NCBI GenBank assembly: GCA_009773155.1
Contig: WOVA01000003.1
Span: 1 to 64,000, forward strand
DNA length: 64,000 bases
Source of the DNA: Elusimicrobiota bacterium
Lineage (GTDB): Bacteria > Elusimicrobiota > Elusimicrobia > Elusimicrobiales > UBA9959
Direction of reading: 5' to 3'
Shown here piece by piece: positions 34,923 to 37,262 of the stretch. Under the pieces are notes generated by a model. That model had not been told where the DNA came from and searched no databases. It worked only from the letters and a program-made list of their open reading frames with translations. How positions within the stretch are numbered: position 1 is the first letter of the stretch; each line of letters starts with the position of its first letter. The position numbers and the translations under genes were made by a program.

Positions 34923-36410
34923 TTAAGCTTTGACGGCGCTTACGCTCTCTATGAAGGAGCGGGCGTCCCCGGCCAGGCGGGCGGCCAGTTCCTTGTCGTC
35001 GAGCGACTCGGCGTTGATGAAAACGTTCTCCGTCGCGCCCTTCACCGCCGCTTCCAGCAGGTAGAGGGCGCTGCGGTAATCAGAGATGACGTGGGACGAG
35101 ACGTCGCCGCACCGGCGCAGTTCGGCGGCGGCCTCCGCGGCCAGGCGCGCGGTCCGGAGCGGCACCTCGGCGGCGTACCTGAGCGCCTCCTGCATCTTCG
35201 ATTTGCGCTCGGGATTGTCCCTGGGCGTCTTCATGGCCGTCATGAAGGCGTCGAACGAGGCGGCGTCCTCGGCCACGCAGGCCTGCAGGTCGCCGCGCAG
35301 CTGCCCGAGCCGGGAGTGCAGCGCGGTCAGGCCGGGCTTCTTTGACTCCTCGAGCTTCTTGCCGCGCAGCGTGATGCCGGCGGCCATCTGTCCAAGGGAG
35401 CAGCCCATCGCGCCGGCTATAGCGGCAGCGCTGCCGCCGCCCGGCGTCGGGTCGGTATTGGCCAGCGCGTCGACCAGCAAGTTGGCGCCGGACTGCCAGG
35501 AACCCAGCAGCTTGAGCAGCTTGGTCTCCAGCACCTGGGTCTCCTTGTCGAAACCCTGTACTTTCAGAGATTCCACGGCGTAGTCGGTCAGCGCCTCCTG
35601 AGTGGTCAGGCCGATAAGCTCGGTGCCGGTGATCTCGATGCCCCTGGGGTCGAGGTCCTTGCGCATCTCGTCGAGAGCGCGCTTGATCGAGGTGGTCCTG
35701 TAATCGGTGAGCACCGTGGACATCTGTACCTGGCCCTTGCTCTCCAGGAAGATCTCCTTGGCGCGCAGCGCCGGCAGGCCGCCGCCGGTGGTGCGTATCT
35801 TCTTGGCCAGGACCTTGGCGAACTCCATGTCGGTGGTGGCCAGGTTGACGTTGAAATTGATGATCTGGTTGCGCGCGCCGACGGCCATGGCGCCGGCGGT
35901 CGGGTGTATCCTGTTGGGCCCGAAATCAGGCACGCGCTCGGGGTCCTTGCCTATGACTTCACGCAGCCCCTCGAACTGACCCTTGCGGACTTTTGCCAGG
36001 TCGCGGCGGTGGTCGACGCGGGCGGCCTTGTCGTAGAGATACACCGGTATGCCCAGTTCGCGGCCGATGCGCTCTCCGGCCTTCCCGGCCAGCGTCACGC
36101 AGTCCTCGATGGTCGAATCCATGACCGGGATGAACGGCGCCACGTCGGTAGCGCCCATGCGGGGATGCTCGCCCTTGTGCTGGTTGAGGTCTATGAGCTC
36201 GGAGGCTTTTTTGGTGACCGCGAACATAGCGTCGGCGGCGGTCTCCACCGGGGCTATGAAAGTGAGGACGGTACGGTTATGATCGGCGTCCTTCTCTACG
36301 TCCAGCACCAGCACGCCGGGCACGGCCCTGGCGGCGTCCACTATGGCGTTTATTTTGGAGAGGTCCCGGCCCTCGCTGAAATTCGGCACGCATTCCACGA
36401 ACTTGCTCAT
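34923..36410 (-). CDS. ftcD: bifunctional glutamate formiminotransferase / formiminotetrahydrofolate cyclodeaminase
   Basis: The 495-residue protein joins a formiminotransferase (residues 1 to about 300; VPNFSEGRD, HKGEHPRMGATDV) with a cyclodeaminase (about 310-495; DPTPGGGSAAA). It transfers the formimino group of formiminoglutamate to tetrahydrofolate, then releases ammonia to give methenyl-THF, completing histidine to glutamate. Fusion as in animals is seen in some bacteria. It heads the long minus-strand train and is preceded by a TATAAT box at 36451-36456 and by the candidate RNA. Confidence 0.95.
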   Translation of the reverse strand: MSKFVECVPNFSEGRDLSKINAIVDAARAVPGVLVLDVEKDADHNRTVLTFIAPVETAADAMFAVTKKASELIDLNQHKGEHPRMGATDVAPFIPVMDSTIEDCVTLAGKAGERIGRELGIPVYLYDKAARVDHRRDLAKVRKGQFEGLREVIGKDPERVPDFGPNRIHPTAGAMAVGARNQIINFNVNLATTDMEFAKVLAKKIRTTGGGLPALRAKEIFLESKGQVQMSTVLTDYRTTSIKRALDEMRKDLDPRGIEITGTELIGLTTQEALTDYAVESLKVQGFDKETQVLETKLLKLLGSWQSGANLLVDALANTDPTPGGGSAAAIAGAMGCSLGQMAAGITLRGKKLEESKKPGLTALHSRLGQLRGDLQACVAEDAASFDAFMTAMKTPRDNPERKSKMQEALRYAAEVPLRTARLAAEAAAELRRCGDVSSHVISDYRSALYLLEAAVKGATENVFINAESLDDKELAARLAGDARSFIESVSAVKA

Positions 36411-36450: not shown

Positions 36451-36456
36451 ATTATA
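36451..36456 (-). promoter_or_regulatory. possible ftcD minus-10 box
   Basis: TATAAT on the minus strand 41 bases upstream of the ftcD ATG. The minus-35 position is weak (about 36474-36479). It lies downstream of the terminator of the candidate RNA, so it could supply terminator-independent transcription of ftcD. Confidence 0.4.
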
Positions 36457-36486: not shown

Positions 36487-36504
36487 CTGGGGTCAGGACC
36501 CCAG
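36487..36504. repeat. perfect inverted repeat CTGGGGTC/GACCCCAG
   Basis: Two 8-base arms with a 2-base spacer lie between the RNA terminator and the ftcD minus-10. The GGGGTC/GACCCC core resembles the GGGGAC/GTCCCC ends of the inverted repeats at 47238 and 62838, but the similarity is short. Confidence 0.6.
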
Positions 36505-36511
36505 TATAATG

Positions 36512-36594
36512 CAAAAACCCGCGTTTAGCGGGTTTTAGCACCCTCCTGAACTACGGGGGGTTTCAACGGGCGGCAGACCCAAGGGTCTGCGGCC
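36512..36594 (-). ncRNA. candidate small RNA or transcription attenuator upstream of ftcD
   Basis: A near-consensus promoter predicts an ~83-base transcript starting near 36594. It opens with a strong hairpin (CAGACC closing a CUUG tetraloop, extended by outer GGC/GCC pairs), has a central single-stranded or weakly paired region with CCCCCC and CAGGAGGG, and ends at a clear intrinsic terminator. It could be a free-standing sRNA or a leader that attenuates ftcD. It does not match SRP, 6S, tmRNA or the folate riboswitch as I know them. No protein of useful length is encoded. Confidence 0.55.
36514..36536 (-). terminator. intrinsic terminator (bidirectional form)
   Basis: AAAACCCGC and GCGGGTTTT form a perfect 9-base stem with a 5-base loop, followed on the minus strand by a T-tract. 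It ends the candidate RNA about 100 bases before the ftcD start. Confidence 0.8.
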
Positions 36595-36600
36595 AAGTAT

Positions 36601-36628
36601 ATTATAGCAGACGGTATTGACCTGTCAA
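36601..36628 (-). promoter_or_regulatory. consensus sigma-70 promoter
   Basis: TTGACA (36623-36628) and TATAAT (36601-36606), both perfect matches, are separated by 16 bases on the minus strand. It is the strongest promoter I found in the window. It drives the candidate RNA and potentially ftcD. Confidence 0.8.
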
Positions 36629-36644: not shown

Positions 36645-37262
36645 TTAGGAGTCGGGGTTGTAAGGTTCCAGCGGGGGCGGGGGCAGTACCGGCTTCGGGT
36701 CGCCGAAATGGACGCTCAGGTAAAGGCAGAGATTATCGGCCGGGCCGACGTCCCCCACCCCGTCCGACTTCATGCTGAAGAGATGGCGCCAGACGGCCTC
36801 CAGTCCCAGCGGCAGGCCGAAGACCCGCCGCTTGACCCCGGCGCCCAGGGAGACGCCGAAGTTGGTGGCTGAGCCGGCGTCGAAGAGCGAAGAGCCGGCC
36901 GCGTAGGCGGAATGCTTCCAATGGAAAACGCCTGCGCCGGCCAGCAGCGTCCAGGTCCTGACGCCGGACGGAAAAGTCGCCCTGAGCGACGGGGCCAGGT
37001 GGAAAATATCTATCTTCAGGGCGCCGTTGGCGCGCGACCTATGGCCGCTCTCCAGGCCGGCCTCGAGGCCCCAGGCCAGGCGGTCGTCCACTTTCTTCCA
37101 GCCGGCGAAAGCGACCGCCGTGGCCGGCTTATAGCCGACATCCGGGTCGCCCCAGTCGCCGCCGAAAGGCATGGCCTGCCCGCCTTTCAGGTCGAAAGTG
37201 AGCGGCATACAGAAGCCCGGCGCGGGAGAGAGCAGCAGGGCCAGCAGCAGGCATCTTTTCAA
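36645..37262 (-). CDS. secreted or outer-membrane protein of unknown function
   Basis: The 205-residue protein has a signal peptide (about residues 1-18, ending PGFC). The rest is Gly- and aromatic-rich with alternating hydrophobic residues ending in LYLSVHFGD, like small outer-membrane beta-barrels of the OmpW or outer-membrane beta-barrel domain type. A C-terminal Pro-rich tail follows. It overlaps the upstream gene by four bases. Function unknown. Confidence 0.6.
   Translation of the reverse strand: MKRCLLLALLLSPAPGFCMPLTFDLKGGQAMPFGGDWGDPDVGYKPATAVAFAGWKKVDDRLAWGLEAGLESGHRSRANGALKIDIFHLAPSLRATFPSGVRTWTLLAGAGVFHWKHSAYAAGSSLFDAGSATNFGVSLGAGVKRRVFGLPLGLEAVWRHLFSMKSDGVGDVGPADNLCLYLSVHFGDPKPVLPPPPLEPYNPDS

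Follow-up and report, generated by a model that had tools for sequence, protein, structure and literature searches.

The 64,000-nucleotide stretch of Elusimicrobiota DNA analysed here (the window) almost certainly carries, judging from sequence comparison, an independent, conserved, intergenic small RNA gene on its minus strand. The RNA represents a new family among bacterial sRNA genes of the known, trans-acting type, and lies between a gene for a predicted outer-membrane-like protein (OMP) and ftcD. The original prediction had left open whether this was an independent sRNA or a leader gating ftcD; the RNA's own promoter, terminator and covarying structure, separable from ftcD, support the first alternative. 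The explanation that best fits the observations overall, and that we consider probable, combines an independent sRNA gene with co-regulation through a palindrome and Hfq-independent antisense action.

The transcript is predicted to start at about 36594 and to end at its terminator (Table 1). Folding of 84 nt (36595-36512) produced three hairpins with a minimum free energy of -40.1 kcal/mol (z = -3.9); of 200 shuffled sequences, 1 folded as well. The CUUG tetraloop that had been noted on the first hairpin is present at 36583-36580, but this loop is not conserved, even within the same genus. At its fourth position, hairpin 1 carries a helix defect that is conserved, being C.C in 26 of 40 members and U.C in 8 of 40, with a one-sided bulge in 2 and other or unaligned states in 4. 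The core of the linker that follows is invariant across members. Both elements previously described in the centre of the RNA were found, a C-rich run (36560-36555) and an AGGAGGG (GGAGGG at 36546-36541); however, AGGAGGG forms the 3' strand of hairpin 2 and is paired with the C run, so it does not provide a free Shine-Dalgarno sequence. Hairpin 2 reads CUCCCC/GGGGA in relatives, its loop sequence varies freely among members, and in nearly all of them CUCCCC or CCCCC makes up the 5' strand of a 5-bp helix. The predicted intrinsic terminator corresponds to hairpin 3, a 12-bp helix in nearly every member with 97.9% of its cells paired. Because no reading frame is open throughout the members, which span 82-89 nt and have variable loops, the RNA appears to be non-coding, and a small protein was rejected for want of a conserved frame. 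The sRNA sequence is single copy in its own genome.

Table 1. Positions of the sRNA, its promoter elements and the neighbouring genes in the window.
Feature	Position	Strand	Basis or comment
Entire sRNA gene product, ~85 nt, ends predicted	36511..36594	-	Covariance models R1/R2
Hairpin 1, GGC-C-GCAGACC CUUG GGUCUGC-C-GCC with 1x1 mismatch	36569..36594	-	Fold and covariation
Single-stranded linker CGUUGAA	36562..36568	-	Alignment; typically ACUGUGAA in the largest genus
Hairpin 2, ACCCCCC / GGAGGGU with one mismatch	36540..36561	-	Fold; proposed target-pairing segment
Hairpin 3, intrinsic terminator GCUAAAACCCGC UAAAC GCGGGUUUUUGC	36511..36539	-	Fold
-35 hexamer TTGACA of the sRNA promoter	36623..36628	-	12/12 consensus promoter
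Extended -10, TGC TATAAT	36601..36609	-	TATAAT itself at 36606-36601; spacer to -35 of 16 nt
Palindrome TTGACAGGTCAA covering the -35 box, possible operator	36617..36628	-	TTGACAAGTCAA in most relatives
Separate -10 box of ftcD (TAGTATAAT; TATAAT)	36451..36456	-	Between the RNA terminator and ftcD
ftcD, glutamate formimidoyltransferase / cyclodeaminase; not counted as part of the sRNA	34923..36410	-	ORF; 49 homologous loci
Upstream gene encoding a predicted outer-membrane-like protein of 205 aa; not counted as part of the sRNA	36645..37262	-	ORF

We collected 49 loci encoding ftcD relatives, 32 of which showed the promoter and RNA arrangement no more than 600 nt before ftcD. The first covariance model, made from 29 of these 32 loci, recovered more, displaced copies. 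Within three genomes of the same genus the sRNA is 89-92% identical, and across the wider set its structure is conserved with strong covariation, contrary to one part of the refuting condition that had been set, the lack of a conserved structure in relatives. Since both alignments were fitted to the model, their counts lean toward the structure: 39 aligned members gave 96.0% standard pair cells, both-sided changes in 10 of 24 pairs and a score of 0.254, and 40 aligned members gave 96.5%, 12 of 24 pairs and a score of 0.270. For the larger alignment, shuffles scored 0.103 +/- 0.007 and slid controls 0.02-0.05; the smaller one gave 0.10 for shuffles and 0.05 at most for slid controls. These slid controls, together with the variety of pair types (one pair shows AU/CG/UA at 17/17/5), indicate that fitting to the model is not a sufficient explanation of the covariation. 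All three helices covary. Hairpin 1, for which covariation had been proposed as a check, does so most (both-sided changes in 6 of 7 modelled pairs), followed by hairpin 2 (3 of 5) and hairpin 3 (3 of 12).

The perfect TTGACA-16-TATAAT promoter that had been reported is of the sigma-70 type, holds at all 12 consensus positions and is on the minus strand, which the earlier claim did not state. A 3-kb region contained three promoter-like matches against 0.3 expected, the sRNA promoter being the sole perfect one. Among the 40 aligned members, TTGACA is retained in all 40 and TGn precedes the -10 box in 38. The -35 region additionally forms a 12-bp palindrome, which is TTGACAAGTCAA in 31 of 40 members and TTGACAGGTCAA in the window; TTGACANGTCAA was found in 32 of 40. 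Four members (L030, L031, L059 and L067) lack the right half-site, so the palindrome is unnecessary for a -35 box. We infer that it is an operator over the -35 box of a regulon, most simply a repressor site; the palindrome string was not found as a known operator in the open literature searched.

A search of 295 genomes of the phylum returned strong matches, defined as over 50 bits, in the window's own family-level group only. With the refined covariance model, the RNA was detected in 45 of the 149 genomes of the order, and all 45 fall in that one group, which comprises 59 of the 149. No genome of the sister family matched the refined model at E <= 1e-5, and weak covariance-model matches there were rejected as terminators that lack the promoter. 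Divergent members, found in genus g8 and as second copies in genus g4, have the promoter and architecture in common but different stem sequences. The g8 terminator is CAAACCCCC-UGA-GGGGGUUUG, and g4 (L106, L107) carries two diverged RNA copies with a palindromic promoter on each.

The palindrome is not confined to the sRNA. In the genus, each genome has 7-8 matches to the pattern of TTGACAnGTCAA followed by TA at promoter spacing, corresponding to about 6-7 distinct promoters, compared to 0 for the reversed control. Behind the other palindrome promoters we observed genes for secreted or membrane proteins and a clostripain-like peptidase (recognised by eye), as well as a second candidate sRNA with a strong terminator and GC-rich leaders of low complexity. 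Because promoters of the sRNA, the secreted-protein genes and the second candidate RNA have the palindrome in common, their sequences suggest co-regulation. A regulator bound at the palindrome over the -35 box would then control the RNA together with the second RNA and a few genes for secreted or envelope proteins.

Several putative transcripts behind promoters of this kind were recorded in their own right. The second candidate sRNA, of about 127 nt, follows a TTGACAAGTCAA promoter (G000:C15:29701, L155; orthologues in L150, L153 and L164), is conserved in 4 of 4 genomes of its genus, has a 17-bp terminator hairpin (fold z -3.5) and lies upstream of a TPR protein. RNAs of about 50 nt occur behind nearly the same extended -10 (TCTGCTATAnTAT) in the window's own genus (L009, L013, L014) and in g5 (L133, L139). 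Each is a single long hairpin, GC-rich and interrupted by an asymmetric bulge, followed by a U run (fold z -3.7 to -5.2); their loop is AUAUUAAC in the own genus, and the stems differ from locus to locus. Many g5 loci (L130, L131, L132, L135, L140-L145) have a common leader, GGCGCCGTCGAT...GGACTAAAGGCCTATTGG...CCTTTGATnAAAGTCAA, which runs from a TTGACAAGTCAAGATAT promoter to just before small secreted-protein genes and has no Rfam match in the loci scanned. A c-di-GMP-I riboswitch (59.3 bits) is located directly behind a TTGACAAGTCAAG promoter in L127 (1332-1410, minus strand). Predicted transcripts from TTGACAAGTCAA promoters in L157, L158, L159 and L172 open with long, low-complexity stretches rich in GCGGT/GTGCGGT.

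The earlier statement that the RNA fits no recognised family agrees with Rfam 15, which gave no match at the gathering threshold in the whole window or in the relatives L106, L107, L118 and L119. Relaxed thresholds, applied to the window and two relatives, returned only sub-threshold terminator-like matches, and a known RNA family was rejected because no Rfam score reaches the gathering threshold. The best of these matches was isrK (RF01394), a prophage sRNA of enterobacteria, which has a similar terminator-like hairpin with AAAACCCGC/GCGGGUUUU but scored 16-25 bits versus a gathering score of 50, with the better of its two window matches on the wrong strand. Trp_leader (RF00513; 21.4 bits versus 41) and other attenuator leaders likewise place a 5' hairpin and then a terminator upstream of a metabolic gene, whereas the new RNA has neither leader peptide nor antiterminator and its adjacent gene is not fixed.

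Hfq (PF17209) was detected in 0 of 31 relatives with positive controls, and an Hfq-dependent trans-acting sRNA was rejected on this result. The absence of Hfq, the CUCCCC/CCCCC segment after the linker, and the precedents of LhrC from Listeria monocytogenes, a CU-rich sRNA that binds Shine-Dalgarno (SD) sequences (PMC4132741), and IsrR, a C-rich, SD-binding, Hfq-independent sRNA (PMC9410917), favour Hfq-independent antisense control. By analogy with these RNAs, trans pairing via CUCCCC is the most likely mode of action, with a nearly even chance of being correct. The weak hairpin 2 would open, allowing CUCCCC and the linker to pair with G-rich translation-initiation regions of mRNAs, and this pairing would block translation or destabilise the mRNAs, while the 5'-terminal hairpin 1 and the terminator would protect the ends of the RNA.

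Like LhrC, the new RNA is short, folds into several hairpins including a terminator, has a UCCC-type motif of the kind used in SD pairing and can be present in multiple copies, and the envelope-stress co-regulation of LhrC offers an analogy to the palindrome regulon (PMC4132741). In contrast to LhrC, with which it has no sequence or Rfam match, the new RNA belongs to a different phylum, is mostly single copy and has one C-rich segment only, which is partly paired in hairpin 2. IsrR and RsaE of Staphylococcus also carry a C-rich segment at or beside a hairpin and provide a precedent for Hfq-free activity (PMC9410917). Their C-rich regions form free loops and their genomes are AT-rich, whereas the C run of the new RNA belongs to a weak stem and the genome is GC-rich. 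As G-rich sites are not rare in such a genome, a C-rich seed would be less discriminating than in Firmicutes.

Target searches covered exact seeds and two neighbour genes. The seed complement GGGGAGTTCAC, searched as an exact 11-mer in 49 genomes, revealed no orthologous targets or start sites in the matches examined, which were mostly in-frame Gly-Glu-Phe-Thr codons or copies of a dispersed GAGTTCACC(G/A)C(A/T)GAGGC repeat. GGGGAGTT placed 2-9 nt before ATG was about equally frequent in genomes with and without the RNA. The seed did not pair consistently with the start regions of ftcD and the OMP gene (mean z -0.44 and -0.02, respectively), the OMP start having been located in only 9 of 21 loci. 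The seed itself has changed in the window's own genus, from AACUCCCC to AAACCCCCC.

The main rival to the antisense mode is a protein-binding role, in which the RNA would mainly titrate or scaffold a protein and hairpin 1, with its 1x1 pyrimidine mismatch, would be the recognition element. Of the three helices, hairpin 1 covaries most and keeps the position of its mismatch while its sequence changes, no mRNA target emerged from the exact-seed, RBS-context and neighbour-start searches, and the absence of Hfq also fits this explanation. However, a single-copy RNA with one site would make a poor sponge, and the members contain no conserved repeated GGA or other known protein motif. We regard protein binding as rather unlikely.

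It is much harder to reconcile the data with a locus that is merely a strong promoter and terminator insulating the upstream gene from ftcD, with an RNA that has no function itself. Conservation is indeed highest in the promoter and terminator, and most relatives have the RNA directly between two same-strand genes. The OMP-like gene is syntenic in most relatives; it is missing in L049 and L066, where the RNA is retained. Against insulation, hairpins 1 and 2 contain compensatory changes, the linker core is invariant, and the RNA has been duplicated with its own promoter and kept after gene insertion or inversion. Compensation, linker conservation, duplication and retention point to selection on the RNA itself, making a functionless spacer very improbable.

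Least probable of all, and barely credible, is a 5' leader of ftcD, a riboswitch, attenuator or T-box-like element that would control transcription for the last step of histidine degradation through its terminator. In most loci ftcD does follow the terminator-ended RNA on the same strand at a distance of 76-257 nt, as it would behind such a leader. However, the second -10 box that had been noticed between the RNA and ftcD recurs in relatives: the genus shows no variation in it, and a -10-like box was seen at 39 of 43 ftcD loci, RNA adjacent or not; ftcD thus has a box of its own downstream of the RNA terminator. The distance between RNA and ftcD rises to 1,118 nt in L047, 1,321 nt in L048 and 1,705 nt in L043, and whole genes occupy the gap, an M28-type peptidase gene on the opposite strand in L047 and a glycosyltransferase gene in L043 and L048. 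REP/MITE-like inverted repeats (GGGGTCAGGTCTT...AAGACCTGACCCC) are inserted between the sRNA terminator and ftcD in L027 and L037. Two genomes have ftcD farther off on the contig that carries the RNA, at about 3 kb (G224) and about 9 kb (G215), and in G213 and G217 (L254/L255, one genus) the RNA is just upstream of ftcD on the opposite strand and is transcribed away from it. The RNA adjoins acetate kinase in G215; in the 3-kb locus L103 its neighbour is acetate kinase, with no ftcD. Nor did the folds or the alignment of members reveal a competing helix, antiterminator or other second fold disrupting the terminator, in keeping with the near-complete pairing of hairpin 3. Collectively, the inserted genes, the inverted orientation and the promoter box belonging to ftcD itself led us to reject an ftcD leader or attenuator for this family. 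In the window, only a stub of the REP/MITE-like repeat (CTGGGGTCCTGACCCCAG, 36487-36504) was seen behind the sRNA terminator.

A more specific version of the favoured explanation, an independent sRNA gene under palindrome co-regulation, can be offered only tentatively. In a phylum without Hfq, the RNA could be the non-coding arm of an envelope or secretion regulon not described before, in which one TTGACAnGTCAA-binding regulator would act over the -35 boxes of several secreted-protein genes, of this RNA with its three hairpins and of one or more other small RNAs. The RNA would then work without a known chaperone, through its kinked 5' hairpin and its C-rich hairpin.

The comparison closes off the reading of this locus as a switch through which folate or histidine would control ftcD. 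Neither Rfam nor the open literature searched yielded a described small regulatory RNA for Elusimicrobiota, and the RNA could join Rfam as a family of its own. Its covariance model, its strong promoter and the palindrome it has in common with other promoters, along with the roughly 45 genomes that carry it, offer an entry to RNA-based regulation in an apparently Hfq-less phylum.
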